Shown here piece by piece: positions 2,147 to 51,850 of a stretch of 64,000 bases of DNA. The stretch's first letter is position 1, and each line of letters starts with the position of its first letter. Under the pieces are notes generated by a model. The model was not told the origin of the DNA and did not search any database. It was given only the letters and a program-made list of their open reading frames with translations. The stretch is from Streptomyces sp. CA-278952 (GTDB taxonomy: Bacteria > Actinomycetota > Actinomycetes > Streptomycetales > Streptomycetaceae): assembly GCF_028747205.1 (NCBI RefSeq), contig NZ_CP112880.1, positions 806,001-870,000 on the forward strand. The letters run 5' to 3'. The position numbers were made by a program, and so were the translations under genes.

Positions 2147-2155
<9 letters not shown>

Positions 2156-3148
2156 GCGCACCGGTGCGTAGGCCGCTCCGTCCAGTCCGAACGTCCAGGC
2201 CACCCCCTCCTTCGCGGTCCGGGTGGCGGGCGGCACGCGCAGCCAGTAGGTGCGGTACGTACCGTCCGGCTCGGGGGTGGAGTTGACCACCTCGACCATC
2301 ACCACGTCCTCGTCGCCCGCGAGGGAGATGCGCCAGAGGATGCCCGTCTCGTCGCGGTGGACCGGTTCGGCGCCCGACTCGGTGAGATACCGGTCGTAGC
2401 CGTAGTACTCCAGCATCACGCGGCGCAGCTCCGCGTTCTCCTCGGCGCGGATCCGCTCGGGGGTGAGGGAGGACAGCTCGGCCAGGAACGCGGCGGGAAC
2501 GGGCATGCCGCGCCAGGCGTGGAGGGCGAAGCCGTCCCCGTAGGCGAGGGCCGGTCCCTCGCCGTGGTCGAGCCGGCCCGCCTCGTCGCGGTGGAGGACG
2601 TCGGGCCGCTCGCTGATGACCGCGGCGTGCTCGTAGGGCCACCACCAGCCGGCGTTGCGGGCCACCTCCGCGAGGCCCGTCAGCCGGTCGCCCCGCCCGT
2701 CGAAGGCGGCGAGCCAGGCGGCGTCGTGCTGGCCGAGCACGGCGTCCAGGAGCACCAGCCGCACGGCGCCCTCGTCCGCGGGTCGCGGCGCCAGGTCCGC
2801 GACGACACCGGTCCGTATCCGCTCGGCGAGTGCGCCCGTGGTCTCCCACAGCTGGGCTCCGGTGGCGGACCAGAGCGCCGACCAGCCCGCCGGGCCCAGC
2901 TCGTCGTACATCCGGCGGCGCTCCTCGGCCCATGGGCGGGTGCGGACCTCCTCGCGCACCGACCGTCCGGCGTCGGCCAGCTTCTCCACCGTCTCGACGG
3001 CGGCCCGCGGCGATGCGGCCCAGATGATCCGGTCCGGCTCGGCCAGGCCCGCGGTGCGATAGGCGCGCCGCACACCGGCCTCGGCCGCCGCCCGGTCCGC
3101 CCGGCCGGTCGCCGCCGCCACGCTCCGCCAGGAATTCACGTTCTGCAT
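2147..3148 (-). CDS. DUF6745 domain-containing protein
   Basis: A 333-residue protein matching, by memory of its conserved blocks, the actinobacterial DUF6745 family. Characteristic segments are a Trp-rich stretch ARNAGWWWPYEHAAVISERP, the motif ALHAWRGMPVPAAFL, and a C-terminal block GTYRTYWLRVPP. There is no signal peptide or membrane segment, so it should be cytoplasmic. No catalytic motif is recognisable and no function is assigned to the family. The ATG at 3148 lies after a GGGGAC purine stretch. It follows the 108-residue gene at 3541 in the same direction, 66 bases apart, and the pair is divergent from the STM4015-STM4011 operon, with which it may act. Confidence 0.8.
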
Positions 3149-3214: not shown

Positions 3215-3541
3215 TCAGTCCGCCACGATCCGGATCGCGCCGGGTGCGTACTCCCGCTGCCGCACGACGCGGAACCAGCCCCTGGGGAGCGGGATCACCG
3301 CGTGCTCCTCGTGCACCACCCGCCCGCCCTCGGGGAGATGGAGCAGCATCGGGCCGAACTGACCCGCTTCCCGGATCAGCCGGCCGGGGCCCTGCACGGC
3401 GTGCGCGTGTCCGGTGACCTCTCCCAGCGCGAGCACCAGCCGCCCCCGCCCGTCGCGCAGTTCGCCCGGGGCCTCCAGGAAGGGGGCGGGCACCGCCGAC
3501 TCCTCCAACTCCATGATCAGTACATCGCCCTGCCGGTACAC
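3215..3541 (-). CDS. Small uncharacterised protein with QGDV...GEVTGHAH motifs
   Basis: A 108-residue protein beginning MYRQGDVLIMELEE, with a central ALGEVTGHAHAV block and an ending with HEEHAVIPLPRGWFRVVRQREYAPGA. Short proteins with this QGDV / GEVTGHAH / REYAP pattern are scattered in bacterial and phage genomes, but I know of no function. The conserved His residues (GHAH, HEEH) could bind metal in a small beta-rich fold; that is inference. It is the first gene of a two-gene leftward unit with the DUF6745 gene, and its start lies 176 bases from the first STM4015 gene on the other strand. Confidence 0.75.
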   Translation of the reverse strand: MYRQGDVLIMELEESAVPAPFLEAPGELRDGRGRLVLALGEVTGHAHAVQGPGRLIREAGQFGPMLLHLPEGGRVVHEEHAVIPLPRGWFRVVRQREYAPGAIRIVAD

Positions 3542-3605
3542 AGACGTCTCCCCTCGGTCGCGGCACCCGCTGTGCCGACCATGGGAAAAACGCTACGGGC
3601 AGGGT

Positions 3606-3660
3606 CTGACAACGGACCGCCGCGGCGGCCGTGGACGGGTCCCGGTCGCGGCGTTGTCAG
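3606..3660. promoter_or_regulatory. Spaced inverted repeat in the divergent DUF6745 / STM4015 promoter region
   Basis: CTGACAACG at 3606-3614 is matched by its reverse complement CGTTGTCAG at 3652-3660, 37 bases away, in the only intergenic space between the two divergent units. It could hold half-sites of an operator shared by both. There is no direct evidence of function. Confidence 0.35.
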
Positions 3661-3717
3661 TGCGGCTTGATAAACCTTGCGGACATCCGCAGTCCCCAGG
3701 AGCAGGAGTTCAGGGCC

Positions 3718-4671
3718 ATGTACGGTGCGCAGCATCTGCACGAGTTCGGCGGCCTTCCGGTCGTCGACTTCCAGCACACGTCCGACGAGGGCTCCCGGCC
3801 CGCCGCGGACGCCGTGGCCTGGCGTGTCTCCGTCGACCCGTACGACGACGACGACCGGCCCTGGGAGGAGGAGTTCGCCGACTTCCTGGACAAGGTCGAC
3901 CCGGCCGGCGTCCGAGCCCTGCTCATCGGCCAGTGGGGCGAGGCGTACGAGGAGACCTCCTCCGCGGCGATCGGCCGGGTGATCGCCGCCGCCGACCGGC
4001 TGACCTCGCTGGAGGCGGTGTTCGTCGGGGATCTGGAGGCGGAGGAGGCCGAGATCACCTGGATCCAGCAGTCGGACGTGACCGTGCTGCTGGCCGCCTT
4101 CCCCGGGCTGACGGAGTTCGGCGTGCGCGGCGGCTCCGGGCTGGTGTTCCCGCCGGCGAAACACGCTGCGCTGCGGTCGCTGACCGTCCAGGCGGGCGGT
4201 CTCCCCGCCGAGGTGGTCCGGGGTGTGCTGGACAGCGAACTGCCCGCGCTGGAGCGGCTGGACCTCTGGCTCGGTGTGTCCGCCTACGAGGGCGATACCG
4301 ACCTCGCCGACCTCGCTCCGCTGCTGGCCGGCACCCGTTTTCCCCGGCTGAACCACCTGGGCGTGCGCAACAGCGAGATCCAGAACGAGATCACGTCGGC
4401 CGTCGCCTCGGCTCCGGTAGTCGCCCAGCTGCGGGTCCTCGACCTGTCGAACGGGACGCTGGGCGACGAAGGGGCGGCCGCCCTCCTCGAAGGGCAGCCG
4501 CTGACCCATCTGGAACTCCTCGATCTCCACCACCACTTCCTCACCGACGCGATGGCCGAGCGGGTCCGTTCCGCCCTGGAGCCGCACGGCGTGCGGGTCG
4601 ACCTCTCCGAGAAGTGCGAGCCCTGGGGCGACCGGGGTGCCGAGGGCCGCTACACCGCCGTCTCGGAGTAG
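3718..4671 (+). CDS. STM4015-family leucine-rich-repeat protein (first copy)
   Basis: A 317-residue protein of the family named after Salmonella STM4015. The N-terminal part carries LHEFGGLPVVDF and a conserved segment ending in WIQQSDVTVLLAAFPGLTEF. The C-terminal half is built of leucine-rich repeats (LERLDLWLG, FPRLNHLGVRNSEI, LRVLDLSNGTL, LELLDLHHHFL). The ATG at 3718 has a CAGGAG site nine bases upstream and aligns with the start of the second copy; an open frame reaching back to 3631 is not needed. The protein ends in GRYTAVSE, nearly identical to the end of the next gene. Only six bases separate it from that gene. No function is known; the repeats suggest a scaffold, recognition module or modified substrate. 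Confidence 0.88.
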   Translation: MYGAQHLHEFGGLPVVDFQHTSDEGSRPAADAVAWRVSVDPYDDDDRPWEEEFADFLDKVDPAGVRALLIGQWGEAYEETSSAAIGRVIAAADRLTSLEAVFVGDLEAEEAEITWIQQSDVTVLLAAFPGLTEFGVRGGSGLVFPPAKHAALRSLTVQAGGLPAEVVRGVLDSELPALERLDLWLGVSAYEGDTDLADLAPLLAGTRFPRLNHLGVRNSEIQNEITSAVASAPVVAQLRVLDLSNGTLGDEGAAALLEGQPLTHLELLDLHHHFLTDAMAERVRSALEPHGVRVDLSEKCEPWGDRGAEGRYTAVSE

Positions 4672-4677
4672 GGCGCC

Positions 4678-5637
4678 ATGACATACATCGGCCTCGAGCA
4701 CCTTGACCGCTTCCACGGGCTGCCGGTCCACACCCCGGCGCCGTCGTCCGGATTCCTGCCCGCCGCCGAGACCGTGGCCTGGCGGCTGGAGGGCGACTAC
4801 GGCGAGGACAGGGACTTCGCCGGCTGGTGGCAGGAGTTCCTGGACACGGTGGACACGGCCCGGGTCCAGGCGCTCGTCGTCGGCCCCTGGTGGCATGACG
4901 GCCACACGCCGTTCGCCCCGGTGATGGAGCTGATCGTCGCCCACGCGGACCGCTTCCCCGGGCTGCGCGGGCTCTTCCTCGCCGATGTCGTGGATGAGGA
5001 GTGCCATGTGTCCTGGTTGCAGATGTGCGACATCACCCCGGTGCTCGAAGCGCTGCCGCTGCTGGAGGAGTTCGCCGTGCGTGGCTGTGGCCGGGAGGGG
5101 CTGGGGCTGCGCCCGCTGCGCCATGCGTCGCTGAAGTCGCTGCGCTTCGAGTCCGGCGGCCTGCCCGGCGAGGTGGTGCGGGCGGTCTCCGCGAGCCAAC
5201 TGCCCGCGTTGGAGCGGCTGGACCTGTGGTTCGGCAGATCGTGGTACGGCGGCGACGCCACCGTCGACGACATCCGGCCGGTCCTGTCGGGGGGCGTGTT
5301 CCCCCGGCTGCGCCACCTGGGGCTGCAGAACAGCGAGATACAGGACGAGATCGCCGCCGCGGTCGGTTCCGCGCCCGTCGTCGCCCAGTTGGAGACCCTG
5401 GCGCTGTCGATGGGCACCCTGAGCGACACGGGCGGCGAGGCCCTGCTCAACGGGCAGCCCCTGAACCACCTGGCCACGCTCGACCTGCGCCACCACTACC
5501 TCACCGAGCCGGTGCTGGACCGCGTCAGGACCGCGTGTGCCCCGGCCGTCGTCGAGGCGGGCGAGGCCGAGAAGGACTACGGGGACCCGGACGACGAGGA
5601 CTACGAACCGGAACGCTATGTCGCGGTCAGCGAGTAG
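4678..5637 (+). CDS. STM4015-family leucine-rich-repeat protein (second copy)
   Basis: A 319-residue paralogue of the preceding gene with the same layout: LDRFHGLPVHTP at the start, WLQMCDITPVLEALPLLEEFAV, then leucine-rich repeats (LERLDLWFG, FPRLRHLGLQNSEI, LETLALSMGTL, LATLDLRHHYL). An acidic spacer (about residues 300-312, rich in Asp and Glu) leads to the C-terminal RYVAVSE, matching the RYTAVSE tail of the first copy although the residues just before it differ. The two proteins are clearly diverged, so this is an old duplication. Its 3' end overlaps the STM4014 gene by 20 bases, which points to translational coupling. The exact role is unknown. Confidence 0.88.
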   Translation: MTYIGLEHLDRFHGLPVHTPAPSSGFLPAAETVAWRLEGDYGEDRDFAGWWQEFLDTVDTARVQALVVGPWWHDGHTPFAPVMELIVAHADRFPGLRGLFLADVVDEECHVSWLQMCDITPVLEALPLLEEFAVRGCGREGLGLRPLRHASLKSLRFESGGLPGEVVRAVSASQLPALERLDLWFGRSWYGGDATVDDIRPVLSGGVFPRLRHLGLQNSEIQDEIAAAVGSAPVVAQLETLALSMGTLSDTGGEALLNGQPLNHLATLDLRHHYLTEPVLDRVRTACAPAVVEAGEAEKDYGDPDDEDYEPERYVAVSE

Positions 5638-6775
5638 CGGCGGGGACGGCCCGGTGCCGCGCTTCGCGGTCGTCGGCAATCCGGACAACCGCCGGGTCGC
5701 CTTCTTCGAGGAGGCCGTGCGCTCGGCCGGGCTGCCGCCGGCCCGGGTGGTGCCCTGGCTCCGGGTGCTGCGCGGCGAGGCGGCGTTCGCGGCGGGCGAG
5801 AGCGTACGGATCGATTCGCCCGGTGAGGACGACGAAGTGGAGCGGCTGCTCCGCGGGGTCGACGACCCGACCCGGGTGGAGGGTTCGGCCCGGTGGTACG
5901 AGCGCTTCACCGCGGCGGTGGGCGCGGTGGCGGGCGCCGCCTCGGCCGCCGGCGCCGAGGTGCTGGGCTCCCCCGGTGACATCGCCGTGCTCTTCGACAA
6001 GCGGCTGTGCCACGGGCTCCTCGACCGTGCGGGGGTCCCCGTGCCCGCCTCCCCGACGTCCGGCCCCGGGGCGGCCCCGGTGCGCGGCTGGTCCGACGTA
6101 CGGGAGTTGCTGCGCGAGCATCGGATGCCCCGGGCGTTCGTGAAGCTCGCGCACGGCTCCTCCGCCTCCGGGGTGCTGGCGGTGGAGACGGCGGGACCCG
6201 GCCGGGTCCGGGCGAGCACCTCCGTGGAGCGGGACGCGTCGGGCCGGCTGTTCAACTCGCTGCGGGTGCGGCGCTACAGCTCGGAGGCGGAGGTCGGCGC
6301 GGTCGTGGACGCGCTGGCCCCGGACGGGCTGCACATCGAGCGCTGGCTGCCGAAGGCGTCCCAGCGGGGACGGGCCGCGGATCTGCGGATCGTGGTGGTC
6401 GGCGGCCGGGCGACGCACGCCGTGGTGCGGACGAGCACGAGCCCCATGACCAATCTGCATCTGGGCGGAGCGCGCGGCGACCTCGACGAGGTCCGGGCCG
6501 CCGTGGCGGCCGCCGGCGGCTGCTGGCGTGAGGCGCTGGCGATGTGCGAGCGGGCGGCGGCCTGCTTCCCCGGGACGCCCTGTGTGGGCGTCGACCTCCT
6601 GCCCACGGCCGGCTGGCGGCGCTTCGCCGTCGGCGAGGTCAACGCTTTCGGCGACCTGCTGCCCGGACTGACCGGTCTGCCGGGCAGCGGCGCCGAGGGT
6701 CTGAACACCTATGCGGCGCAGGTCGCCGCCGTACTGGACCGAGCAAGGAACCACCGTGCCGTCACCCCTTCCTGA
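5618..6775 (+). CDS. STM4014-family ATP-grasp protein
   Basis: A 385-residue protein with ATP-grasp features. An N-terminal pre-grasp domain (FAVVGNPDNRRVAFFEEAV) is followed by SPGDIAVLFDKRLCHGLLD and GVPVPAS, the nucleotide-binding loop segment FVKLAHGSSASGV, and the C-terminal metal-binding motif VGEVNAFGDLLPG, whose Glu and Asn would hold magnesium. ATP-grasp enzymes join a carboxylate to an amine or thiol through an acyl phosphate, so a peptide- or amino-acid-ligating step is likely in this operon; the substrate is not known. The start is ATG 5618 inside the preceding gene; a GTG about 30 bases downstream is the main alternative. The 3' end overlaps the next start by 20 bases. Confidence 0.87.
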   Translation: MSRSASSGGDGPVPRFAVVGNPDNRRVAFFEEAVRSAGLPPARVVPWLRVLRGEAAFAAGESVRIDSPGEDDEVERLLRGVDDPTRVEGSARWYERFTAAVGAVAGAASAAGAEVLGSPGDIAVLFDKRLCHGLLDRAGVPVPASPTSGPGAAPVRGWSDVRELLREHRMPRAFVKLAHGSSASGVLAVETAGPGRVRASTSVERDASGRLFNSLRVRRYSSEAEVGAVVDALAPDGLHIERWLPKASQRGRAADLRIVVVGGRATHAVVRTSTSPMTNLHLGGARGDLDEVRAAVAAAGGCWREALAMCERAAACFPGTPCVGVDLLPTAGWRRFAVGEVNAFGDLLPGLTGLPGSGAEGLNTYAAQVAAVLDRARNHRAVTPS

Positions 6776-7649
6776 CCCCGACACGTCCCCGCTGCCCGGC
6801 GGCTGCGGCCGGCCCGACATGGGCGAGGTCGTGGGAAGCCACGATCTGCTGCTGGTCACCCTGGACACCCTGCGGCACGATGTCGCCGTCGAGCTGGCAG
6901 ATGCCGGGCGGCTCCCCAACCTCGCCCGGCATCTGCCCGGGGGCGGCTGGGAGGAGCGGCATGCTCCGGGCAGCTTCACCTACGCCTCGCACCAGGCGAT
7001 GTTCGCCGGGTTCCTGCCGACGCCCGCCTCCCCCGGCCCGCATCCCCGGTTGTTCGCGGCGCGGTTCGCGGGCAGTGAGACGACGGCGGACGGCACGTTC
7101 GTGTTCGACACGCCGGATCTGGTGTCGGGGCTGGCCGCCGAGGGTTACCGCACGGTGTGCGTCGGCGGGGTCGGCTTCTTCAACCGTCAGGGGCCGCTCG
7201 GATCGGTGCTGCCCGGGATGTTCCAGGAGAGCCACTGGGAACCCGGCTTCGGCGTCGCCTCCCCCACCTCGTTCGAGGAGCAGGTGGCCAGGGCGGAGCA
7301 GGTCGTCGCGGCGCTCCCCCGGGAGCAGCGGCTGTTCCTCTTCGTCAACGTGTCCGCCCTGCACCAGCCGAACTGGTTCCATCTGCCCGGGGCGACCCAT
7401 GAGGCGGGCGACTCCCGGGCCACGCACGCGGCGGCCCTGGAGTACGTGGACCGGCACATCGGCCGGCTCTTCGCCGCGGCGAGCAGCCGTCGCCGGTGCT
7501 TCGCCATCGTCTGCTCGGACCACGGCACCGCCTACGGCGACGACGGCTACACCGGTCACCGGCTCGGCCACCCGGCCGTCTGGACCGTCCCGTACGCCCA
7601 CTTCTTCCTCGAACCATCCGCGTCGCTCGCCCCGGGGGCCGCCCGATGA
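6756..7649 (+). CDS. STM4013/SEN3800-family alkaline-phosphatase/sulfatase-fold hydrolase
   Basis: A 297-residue protein of the alkaline phosphatase superfamily. Metal-binding signatures are visible at both ends: DLLLVTLDTLRHDVA near the N-terminus, and CSDHGTAYGDDGYTGHRLGH near the C-terminus, with the DH and H...H ligands. The nucleophile is expected in the SFTYASHQAMF segment, where Thr or Ser can serve. There is no signal peptide, so it acts in the cytoplasm, unlike most sulfatases. GTG 6756 is chosen because AAGGAA lies just upstream; an ATG further upstream lacks a ribosome site. It overlaps STM4014 at its start, and its TGA stop overlaps the ATG of the radical SAM gene. The reaction is unknown; phosphoester or phosphonate hydrolysis are options. 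Confidence 0.87.
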   Translation: MPSPLPDPDTSPLPGGCGRPDMGEVVGSHDLLLVTLDTLRHDVAVELADAGRLPNLARHLPGGGWEERHAPGSFTYASHQAMFAGFLPTPASPGPHPRLFAARFAGSETTADGTFVFDTPDLVSGLAAEGYRTVCVGGVGFFNRQGPLGSVLPGMFQESHWEPGFGVASPTSFEEQVARAEQVVAALPREQRLFLFVNVSALHQPNWFHLPGATHEAGDSRATHAAALEYVDRHIGRLFAAASSRRRCFAIVCSDHGTAYGDDGYTGHRLGHPAVWTVPYAHFFLEPSASLAPGAAR

Positions 7650-9028
7650 CCACCACCGTCGCCGCGGGAGCGGCCACCGCCGTCCGGCCGTACGAGAGTT
7701 ACGTCTACGCCTATCCGCACAAGACGGCCTACCGGCCGCTTCGGGACCGTCCGGCGCTGCGGTCGCTGTGGGCGGCGGAGCCCAAGGACGCGCTCTCCCT
7801 CTACCTCCACATACCGTTCTGCGAGGTCCGCTGCGGTTTCTGCAACCTCTTCACCCGGATCGGCGCGCCCGAGGAGCTGACAACGCGCTATCTGGACGCG
7901 TTGGAGCGGCAGGCCGTCGCCGTGCGGGACGCGCTGGGCGACGAGGAGCCGGTGCGGTTCGCCGCGGCGGCGTTCGGGGGCGGCACGCCGACGTTCCTGA
8001 CCGCGAGTGAGCTGGAGCGGCTCTGCGACATAGCGGAGAAGCGGATGGGCGCCGACCTGCGCTCGGTGCCGCTGTCGGTGGAGACCTCCCCGTCCACGGC
8101 GACGGCGGACCGACTGGCGGTGCTGGCCGACCGGGGCACGACGCGGATCAGCATCGGTGTGCAGAGTTTCGTGGACGAGGAGGCGCGGGCCGCCGTCCGT
8201 CCGCAGCGTCGCGCCGATGTGGAGGCGGCGCTCGGCCGGATCCGCGAGGCCCGGATCCCGGTGCTGAACATCGACCTGATCTACGGCATCGACGGGCAGA
8301 CCGAGCGCAGCTGGCTCTCCTCGCTGGACGCGGCGCTGGCCTGGCGGCCGGAGGAGCTGTATCTCTATCCGCTGTACGTCCGCCCGCTCACCGGTCTGCA
8401 CCGCCGGGGCGCGGCGGCCGGCGCCGAGGCGGAGGCCCTGGAGCAGGCCGCCTGGGACGAGCAGCGGCTGCGGCTGTACGCGGTGGGGCGGGACCATCTG
8501 CTGGCGCACGGCTACGAACAGGTGTCGATGCGGATGTTCCGGCGGTCCGACGGACCGCGGGAACAGAAGGGTCCCGAGGACTACGCCTGCCAGACCGACG
8601 GCATGATCGGCCTCGGCTGCGGTGCCCGTTCGTACACGGCGGCCCTGCACTACTCCTTCGACTACGCGGTGGACATGCGGGAGATCCGGTCGATCATCGA
8701 CGGGTTCACCGCCGTCGAGGACTTCTCCCGGGCCGAGGTCGGCCGGTACGTCGACGCGGACGAGGCGCGACGGAGGCATCTGCTGCAGTCGCTGCTCCAG
8801 GCGGCGGGGCTGCCGGTGGCGGACTACCGGGCCCGGTTCGGTACGGATCCGGGCGCGGATTTCCCGGCCGAGCTGGCGGGGTTCGCGGCCCGTGGCTGGC
8901 TGGACGCGTCGGCGCCGGACGGTCTGCTGAGGCTGTCCCCGTCGGGCCTCGCCCACTCCGACGCGCTGGGTCCCGCGCTGTTCTCCCCCGGGGTGCGGGC
9001 CGCGATGGCCGCGTACGAGCGGAGGTGA
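7646..9028 (+). CDS. STM4012-family radical SAM protein (HemN-like)
   Basis: A 460-residue radical SAM enzyme. The [4Fe-4S] ligands are Cys59, Cys63 and Cys66 in the HIPFCEVRCGFCNLF motif, followed by a GGGTP SAM-binding segment (AAFGGGTPTF) and ISIGVQSF, as in HemN. It has the HemN-like C-terminal extension (ADYRARFGTDPGADF then winged-helix-like residues). The context has nothing to do with haem, so oxygen-independent coproporphyrinogen oxidase, the usual automatic label, is unlikely. The ATG at 7646 overlaps the preceding TGA (ATGA), and the next gene starts seven bases after the stop. It probably performs a radical modification on a substrate supplied by this operon. Confidence 0.9.
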   Translation: MTTTVAAGAATAVRPYESYVYAYPHKTAYRPLRDRPALRSLWAAEPKDALSLYLHIPFCEVRCGFCNLFTRIGAPEELTTRYLDALERQAVAVRDALGDEEPVRFAAAAFGGGTPTFLTASELERLCDIAEKRMGADLRSVPLSVETSPSTATADRLAVLADRGTTRISIGVQSFVDEEARAAVRPQRRADVEAALGRIREARIPVLNIDLIYGIDGQTERSWLSSLDAALAWRPEELYLYPLYVRPLTGLHRRGAAAGAEAEALEQAAWDEQRLRLYAVGRDHLLAHGYEQVSMRMFRRSDGPREQKGPEDYACQTDGMIGLGCGARSYTAALHYSFDYAVDMREIRSIIDGFTAVEDFSRAEVGRYVDADEARRRHLLQSLLQAAGLPVADYRARFGTDPGADFPAELAGFAARGWLDASAPDGLLRLSPSGLAHSDALGPALFSPGVRAAMAAYERR

Positions 9029-9035
9029 CGGGGCC

Positions 9036-9959
9036 ATGGACCTGACGATTCTCTACCGGGGCCCGCTCGCCTCCTGCGACTACGACTGTCCGTACTGCCC
9101 GTTCGCCAAGCGGCGGGACAGCCGCGCGCAGCTCACGGCGGACCGGGAGGCGCTGGAGCGGTTCACCGGCTGGGCCGCGGAGCGGACCGGTGACCGGCTG
9201 TCCGTGCTGTTCACCCCGTGGGGCGAGGGCCTGGTGCGCTCCTGGTACCGGCGGGCGCTGACCGATCTCTCACGGCTGCCGCACATCGGGCGGGTGGCGA
9301 TCCAGACGAACCTGAGCGGCCGCACCGACTGGCTGGCCGACGCCGATCCGGAGCGGGTCGCGCTCTGGTGCACGTACCACCCGGGGCAGACACCGTACGA
9401 GCGGTTCCTGGGCAAGTGCCGGGAGCTGTCCGCGAGGGGAATCCGCTACAGCGTCGGCGTGGTGGGCTTCGACGCCCATCTGGAGGAGGCGCGGCGGTTG
9501 CGGGCGGCGCTGCCGCAGGAGGTCTATCTCTGGGTGAACGCCGCCGAGGGCCACACCTACACCGACGCGGAGGCGGCGCGGTGGACGGAGCTGGATCCGC
9601 TGTTCCCCTACAGCCGTGATCCGCACCGTTCGGCGGGGCTGCCCTGCCGGACGGGCGAGTCGGTGATCTCGGTGGACGGCGACGGCACGGTGCGGCGCTG
9701 TCACTTCGTCAAGGCGGAGCTGGGGAATCTCTACGACGGCAGCTACCGCCGGGCGCTCGGCCCGCGGTCCTGTCCGCTCGCCGTGTGCGACTGCCACATC
9801 GGTTATGTGCATCTGGAGTCGCTGCCGCTGTACGACGTGTTCGCGGGCGGTGTCCTGGAGCGGATACCGGCAGGAAACCCCCCGGCCGGGGGCACGCCGC
9901 CGGTCGGGCTCGTGGTGCCGGGCCCGACCCGGCGTGCGCTTCCCCTGCTGGAGCCCTGA
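9036..9959 (+). CDS. STM4011-family radical SAM protein with C-terminal Cys-rich domain
   Basis: A 307-residue radical SAM protein. The cluster motif is near the very N-terminus: Cys14, Cys18 and Cys21 in SCDYDCPYCPFAK. The C-terminal part has a further set of cysteines (PCRTG, then RRCHF after 17 residues, then SCPLAVCDCHIGY) that could hold an auxiliary iron-sulfur cluster like a twitch/SPASM domain, as found in many peptide-modifying radical SAM enzymes. The segment ISVDGDGTVRRCHF is typical of SPASM-type proteins. It is the last gene of the operon, seven bases after STM4012. The presence of two radical SAM enzymes, an ATP-grasp enzyme and repeat proteins with a common tail suggests protein or peptide modification; this is inference. 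Confidence 0.9.
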   Translation: MDLTILYRGPLASCDYDCPYCPFAKRRDSRAQLTADREALERFTGWAAERTGDRLSVLFTPWGEGLVRSWYRRALTDLSRLPHIGRVAIQTNLSGRTDWLADADPERVALWCTYHPGQTPYERFLGKCRELSARGIRYSVGVVGFDAHLEEARRLRAALPQEVYLWVNAAEGHTYTDAEAARWTELDPLFPYSRDPHRSAGLPCRTGESVISVDGDGTVRRCHFVKAELGNLYDGSYRRALGPRSCPLAVCDCHIGYVHLESLPLYDVFAGGVLERIPAGNPPAGGTPPVGLVVPGPTRRALPLLEP

Positions 9960-51719: not shown

Positions 51720-51850
51720 ACCCTCACCGTACGGGCCACCACTGACAACGGGCCCGGGGTGGACGGCGGGGCGATGGTGCAGGAGACTTTCACAGTAATG
51801 GTGAGACAGCGGCACTGTCCGACATGAGGGTTCGACGGCGGGGAGCAGAG

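Follow-up and report, generated by a model that had tools for sequence, protein, structure and literature searches.

Operon layout and gene families

We analysed a stretch of 64,000 nucleotides, hereafter called the window, which corresponds to positions 806001-870000 of the 8.2-Mb single-contig genome of Streptomyces sp. CA-278952. The window contains six neighbouring plus-strand genes that encode two leucine-rich-repeat (LRR) proteins (STM4015, copies a and b), an ATP-grasp protein (STM4014), an alkaline-phosphatase-superfamily hydrolase (STM4013) and two radical S-adenosylmethionine (SAM) proteins (STM4012 and STM4011). All six proteins are members of the five NCBIfam families STM4011 to STM4015, each scoring above the curated cut-off (Table 1), and the family models themselves carry no function. 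A preliminary description of this DNA had proposed that the genes form one coupled operon, and this was borne out, as was the spacing it claimed: overlaps of 20 and 20 bases, an ATGA overlap, and gaps of 6 and 7 bases. The start of STM4013 is ambiguous, as it could be GTG 6756, preceded by the plausible ribosome site AAGGA, or the in-frame ATG 6819, the position of a Met conserved in 81 of 86 STM4013 relatives. The second 20-base overlap depends on taking GTG 6756 as the start; ATG 6819 would give a gap instead.

Overall, the observation made in the preliminary description was confirmed, and its interpretation as a peptide- or cofactor-maturing system was partly supported. Four features had gone unnoticed in it, namely a divergent unit encoding a 108-aa protein (called GDV) and a DUF6745 protein, a HAD-phosphatase partner, promoter sites of a DNA-damage type, and a solved relative of STM4015 (2ra8). 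The first three are also additions to what the NCBIfam families describe. The conserved neighbourhood in this lineage reaches past positions 3718-9959 and includes the divergent unit and the intervening promoter region.

Table 1. Position of the operon genes and associated features in the window.
Feature	Position	Strand	Details
STM4015 copy a, LRR protein, proposed carrier	3718..4671	+	317 aa; NF038076 384.5 bits (cut-off 275)
STM4015 copy b	4678..5637	+	319 aa; 49% identity with copy a; NF038076 365 bits
STM4014, RimK/LysX-like ATP-grasp protein	5618..6775	+	385 aa; NF038074 451 bits (cut-off 175)
STM4013, alkaline-phosphatase-superfamily hydrolase	6756..7649	+	GTG start; NF038075 427.4 bits (cut-off 250)
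STM4012, HemN-like radical SAM protein	7646..9028	+	PRK08208 641.8 bits (cut-off 380)
STM4011, radical SAM protein with five extra conserved cysteines, possibly twitch/SPASM-like	9036..9959	+	NF038073 417.7 bits (cut-off 200)
Tail codons of copy a, GRYTAVSE, ending in the conserved Glu	4645..4668	+	
Tail codons of copy b, ERYVAVSE	5611..5634	+	
RecA-NDp/PafBC-type site towards STM4015	3654..3676	+	Last -10 base C, not T
Same-type relaxed site towards the GDV gene	3590..3612	-	AC instead of TG after TTGTCAG
GDV protein, GDVL...GEVTGHAH...HEEH...QREY...D	3215..3541	-	108 aa; PHROG 27831 45 bits
DUF6745 protein	2147..3148	-	333 aa; PF20530 385 bits (cut-off 27)

Conservation and distribution

An alignment of STM4011 was searched by tblastn against one genome per species. 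At least 521 stretches were found to encode a relative, and the best 80 of these were examined. Adding seven plasmid loci and the window brought the set to 88 loci, which were searched with profiles built for this analysis. In 80 of the 88 (the window and 79 of the 87 others) all five families occurred in the same order, without a change of strand. The eight exceptions comprised a contig edge (L097), rearrangements (L085, L089), losses or damage (L033, L053, L087, L100) and an out-of-frame locus (L117). By record title the loci belong to Bacillota, Bacteroidota, Pseudomonadota, Actinomycetota, Deinococcota and Planctomycetota, with a few metagenome-assembled genomes (MAGs) whose titles name no phylum.

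The 88 loci were picked via STM4011, so these co-occurrence counts are conditional on STM4011, and therefore 323 Streptomyces genomes were surveyed as well. STM4015 scored above the cut-off in 149 and STM4011 in 147, with both in 144; five genomes had STM4015 without STM4011 and three the reverse (Fisher p = 2e-81, a value that overstates independence because Streptomyces genomes are related). An even draw of 198 genomes from the phylum gave STM4013 above the cut-off only in Streptomyces (the window genome and four others), and the operon is therefore patchy in Actinomycetota outside Streptomyces. On a cyanobacterial plasmid (Calothrix) STM4015 was present and STM4011 absent.

Relatives of STM4011 range from Clostridia and Bacteroides to Deinococcus and planctomycetes, yet no function was found for them in the literature searched, which omits most subscription journals. 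No functional paper came up there for DUF6745, for 2RA8, for the families by name or for combined terms, and the locus names turned up in two passing mentions. The view of one conserved system without a described function is well supported by these counts and searches.

Some individual records stood out. The Bacteroides finegoldii plasmid (L033) has kept STM4015, STM4014 and a STM4011-HAD fusion, whereas its STM4013 is reduced to a remnant and STM4012 is missing. Unlike this plasmid-borne locus, the DSM 17565 copy (L074) has all five families. In a Salmonella record called 'plasmid' (L034) the operon adjoins genes such as typA and glnA, and two Salmonella-labelled records of a phage collection (H14, H15) match STM4011.

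A near-invariant C-terminal glutamate in STM4015

The last residue of STM4015 was Glu in 99 of 100 complete open reading frames (ORFs), representing 91 distinct 22-residue tails. The lone exception was an Ala in one copy of a Catenulispora array, in which four STM4015 copies stand in one operon (L109:1166-5030). L117, where several frames run together, was left out of this count; elsewhere it is included, giving 99 of 101. Eight further ORFs, including that of Calothrix, likewise end in Glu. Most tails consist of an acidic stretch and an aromatic or other residue followed by a loose [APV]-[MA]-[LVI]-[TSGA]-E, as in RYVAVSE, NAMLTE and YPMLTE. They contain many Asp and Glu residues (mean charge -5.7), and position -2 is Thr or Ser in 74 of the 100 tails and Gly, Ala or Asp in 26. 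The final residue had an entropy of 0.16 bit in STM4015, as compared to 3.7 bits in STM4014, 3.2 in STM4013, 3.5 in STM4012 and 3.2 in STM4011 (the latter from 39 of 88 ORFs, the rest carrying a long extension).

The predicted structure of copy b is an LRR fold. The predicted local distance difference test score (pLDDT) exceeds 90 in most core blocks and is 71-76 over the final twenty residues. With the family profile we identified a solved relative, 2ra8 from Bacteroides fragilis, an uncharacterised protein (E = 6.5e-94). Its chain continues beyond ...YSYPMITE with eight residues that are probably a tag, and the terminal carboxylate would therefore be hidden. The number of STM4015 copies per operon varied from one to four, and a WGR domain is fused to a Bacteroides STM4015 (one copy scanned). 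Across 98 STM4015 sequences no Cys position reached 93% conservation.

STM4015 copies outside the operon were used as a natural control for the link between Glu and operon. In Streptomyces genomes with the operon the terminal Glu was kept in 15 of 18 such copies, as compared to 1 of 5 in genomes without an intact STM4011 (p = 0.017), a difference that is suggestive only. The single Glu-keeping copy in the latter group (G505) adjoins operon remnants. Against a strong reading, four of the seven losses share a CVGP or SVGP...Y ending, which is found in genomes of both kinds, and look like one paralogue group; a rougher count of the copies gave 15:2 against 1:2 (p = 0.09). The count includes L131 (261 bits, cut-off 275) as a loss and L149 despite its 5.2-kb contig; left out were the partial copy L150 (91 bits) and L132, a decayed copy in G262. 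Among the Streptomyces copies outside the operon, L122, L123, L125 and L139 have a CVGP or SVGP...Y ending and L121 has a similar tail. Copies with such alternative tails may have another role.

The enzymes encoded by the operon

The profile of STM4014 matches RimK and LysX among the sequences of the PDB. The structural model of STM4014 (pLDDT 92.8) had its best match among solved structures in the ArgX-LysW complex 3vpb, ArgX being the ligase from which the carrier LysW receives amino acids on its C-terminal Glu. RimK and LysX tied with ArgX in Z, and the graspetide ligase PsnB occupied Foldseek ranks 3-9. Residues K128, K176, D326 and N342 were conserved in 82 of 82 sequences and E340 in 81 of 82. 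STM4014 fell below the family models of RimK (TIGR00768, 23.1 bits, cut-off 143.4) and LysX (TIGR02144, cut-off 275.6). The earlier suggestion of ligation to a C-terminal peptide is concretely supported by both this fold and the near-invariant Glu of STM4015, the ligase activity itself being a prediction.

STM4012, a HemN-like radical SAM protein, had the CX3CX2C motif (C59, C63, C66) in 84 of 84 sequences. The reading of STM4012 as a haem enzyme found no support, its scores for HemN and HutW being below the respective cut-offs (TIGR00538, 127.3 against 324.95 bits; TIGR04107, 145.4 against 400). In STM4011 eight cysteines were found in 87 of 87 sequences, consisting of a CX3CX2C motif (C14, C18, C21) and five more (C204, C222, C246, C251, C253). 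The SPASM/twitch motif has the form C-X9-15-G-X4-C plus further Cys. The arrangement C204-X12-G217-X4-C222 together with C246-X4-C251-X-C253 was likewise present in all 87, and the Pfam SPASM score was 13.8 bits, below the cut-off of 21.5.

STM4013 matched the Pfam Sulfatase family (PF00884, 34.2 bits, cut-off 25). T75, D255, H256, H268 and H272 were invariant in 86 of 86 sequences, with Thr75 in a T-x-x-x-H context. A formylglycine sulfatase was rejected, as the conserved residue is Thr75 and not the Cys/Ser nucleophile of a CxPxR motif; presumably Thr75 is the nucleophile, as in NPP enzymes. Phosphoester hydrolysis, as previously proposed, fits the invariant Thr and the Asp/His set and is predicted from these residues. 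In 48 of 88 STM4011 ORFs a C-terminal extension of more than 150 residues was present, and all three of those scanned with Pfam were HAD phosphatases (Hydrolase_3). A HAD phosphatase is encoded by a neighbouring gene in the Salmonella and Superficieibacter operons, and in Rhodopirellula a HAD-like ORF, judged by eye, lies between STM4014 and STM4013.

A Roseburia MAG carries a TwoAYGGAY RNA inside the operon, after STM4013 and before STM4012 (L058:8378-8543, RF01731, 86.7 bits), which was not found in the 13 other loci scanned with Rfam. No riboswitch was detected in these 14 loci, the only other hits being five tRNAs in L046. The inserts at the same place in L063, L082 and L100 looked mutually unrelated by eye.

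The divergent unit and the promoter region

The GDV protein had no Pfam or NCBIfam match. The pair of GDV and DUF6745 genes adjoins the operon in 11 of the 88 loci (Actinomycetota, Deinococcus, Methylobacterium and Rhodopirellula), and two more Deinococcus plasmids also carry it. Among 101 Streptomyces genomes, 43 of which have STM4011, a strong DUF6745 match (>360 bits) was found in 35. In all 35 it lay within about 3 kb of STM4015, as read off by hand, and all 35 have STM4011. Weaker matches (90-107 bits), found in five genomes of which three lack STM4011, form a separate group not among the 35. Since these weak matches occur without STM4011, and distant relatives of the pair (L159, L160) have no operon nearby, GDV/DUF6745 is regarded as an accessory module. 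A distant relative of GDV (32% identity) is encoded by a cyanophage, Microcystis phage LMM01 (155190-155525).

The RecA-NDp/PafBC promoter consensus is tTGTCRgtg-8 nt-TannnT (PMC5656591). Sites of this type face both STM4015 and the GDV gene in the window, and of 40 further upstream regions, hand-picked from STM4015 matches in Streptomyces genomes, 28 contain TTGTCRGTG-8-TA on one strand or both. As judged from these motifs, the operon and the divergent pair share a DNA-damage promoter region of predicted RecA-NDp/PafBC type in many Streptomyces, and the operon is probably switched on by DNA damage there. In a published initial motif search, the motif was not found to be conserved in S. venezuelae. 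A regulon of the PafBC type seems to exist in the window Streptomyces (G000), where 21 such promoter places (L161-L181) include those of recA, uvrB, ruvC and ung, along with several uncharacterised genes. The first ten downstream ORFs scanned had been chosen for looking like repair genes, and the other eleven gave no clear repair gene. Upstream of the operon, consensus motifs of LexA, FNR, sigma-54 and similar regulators showed no enrichment in 79 loci; NrdR-like sites (5 found, 1.5 expected) and loose LexA sites (5 found, 2.6 expected) were unconvincing. A sigma-54 site is listed for STM4013.S in Salmonella, in the opposite direction (PMC3844500).

Elsewhere in the window, a strict RecA-NDp/PafBC site (51726-51748, minus strand) lies ahead of a gene that reaches about 51.2 kb. 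Its 158-aa protein has a weak macro-domain match (14.8 bits, cut-off 22) and is possibly the product of another DNA-damage gene.

The 25 most frequent clusters of neighbouring ORFs, each named by eye after a single example, included ABC-transporter ATPases (21 loci), helix-turn-helix regulators (10), response regulators (9) and MATE exporters (8), along with many spurious frames. No release enzyme, such as a LysK-like peptidase, was recognised among them. A role in anti-phage defence was rejected, as PADLOC gave only a weak match of STM4012 (PDC-M51A, 23.4 bits).

Proposed mechanism and alternatives

With moderate confidence we propose that STM4015 is a carrier whose C-terminal Glu is charged by STM4014, and that the molecule tethered there is processed by the radical SAM enzymes and phosphatases. 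STM4015 would be a folded LRR protein, carrying or itself modified, with an acidic tail whose last residue is Glu. STM4014 would activate the terminal carboxylate with ATP and couple it to an amino acid or to a small molecule bearing an amine, STM4012 and STM4011 would then act on the tethered group, and STM4013, in many lineages with the HAD phosphatase, would remove phosphate from the substrate or product. A finished product might then be released. The mode would resemble that of the LysW amino-group carrier or pearlin biosynthesis, on a large repeat protein. The combination of a near-invariant last Glu, a variable stretch ahead of it and an ATP-grasp protein of ArgX/RimK fold specifically matches carboxylate modification, and it sharpens the vague idea of a modification system into a prediction about one residue. 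The missing release enzyme weakens the version in which a product leaves the carrier.

The lack of a recognised release enzyme would suit a permanent modification, in which STM4014 and the radical SAM enzymes would bring STM4015 itself to maturity, for example through glutamylation at the C terminus or a cofactor bound to the tail. The LRR protein in its modified form would then be the functional end product, possibly one that acts in the response to stress or DNA damage. The one to four STM4015 copies per operon, the tails kept outside the operon in operon-bearing genomes, the tie of RimK with ArgX, the WGR domain and the DNA-damage-type promoter sites all point the same way. For glutamylation, however, a pair of radical SAM enzymes plus one or two phosphatases would be excessive, and the phosphatases suggest a phosphorylated small-molecule intermediate, so that we consider permanent modification rather unlikely, if a serious competitor. 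LRR proteins commonly bind partners, and Glu could be only a docking or stability element of a scaffold that gathers the enzymes while STM4014 to STM4011 make a free small molecule or cofactor. The naming of 2ra8 as only an uncharacterised protein leaves room for such a role, but the specific fit of tail and ligase fold to carboxylate modification makes it improbable. The ranks of PsnB, which acts on acidic residues of a peptide, together with the frequent Thr or Ser at -2 and the many Asp and Glu in the tails, would agree with a graspetide-like linkage of an acidic side chain to the -2 residue or another nucleophile, with further cross-links added by the radical SAM enzymes in the fashion of ribosomally synthesised and post-translationally modified peptides. 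The sole near-invariant residue of the tail is the terminal Glu, though, and with Gly, Ala or Asp in about a quarter of tails there is no conserved nucleophile at -2; we consider this linkage very improbable.

Comparison with known systems

The carrier proposal has its closest parallel in LysW/ArgW with LysX/ArgX, which likewise combine a separate carrier protein with an acidic tail, a C-terminal Glu and an ATP-grasp ligase of the same fold. LysW is a zinc-binding protein of ~54 aa that ends in EDWGE (PMC10433800), whereas STM4015 is an LRR protein of about 280-360 aa without EDWGE and without a small zinc-binding Cys domain. The STM4015 system also differs in having two radical SAM enzymes and no recognised LysK-like peptidase. 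RimK, the glutamate ligase of ribosomal protein S6, differs from STM4014 in that the latter comes with four conserved partner genes. The fold of PsnB is shared with STM4014, but the PsnB precursor is a short peptide. In the pearlins (3-thiaglutamate, 3-thiahomoleucine) chemistry also takes place at the C terminus of a carrier, in one case with a radical SAM enzyme (PMC9303977). The pearlins differ by a small carrier peptide, a tRNA-dependent PEARL ligase and a protease, and none of the six window genes matched families of the PEARL-ligase or protease type in NCBIfam and Pfam scans.

A broader and more doubtful possibility is that the operon represents a third kind of amine-tethering biosynthesis. 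LysX/RimK-type loading of the LRR protein's Glu would allow the radical SAM enzymes to build a new cofactor or signalling metabolite in at least six phyla, and in Streptomyces the system would have been recruited, with GDV/DUF6745, into the LexA-independent DNA-damage response. If the loading of the terminal Glu holds true, radical chemistry on carriers would be far more widespread than LysW and the pearlins suggest, and a product of the actinobacterial DNA-damage response, be it a metabolite or a modified protein, would become traceable.

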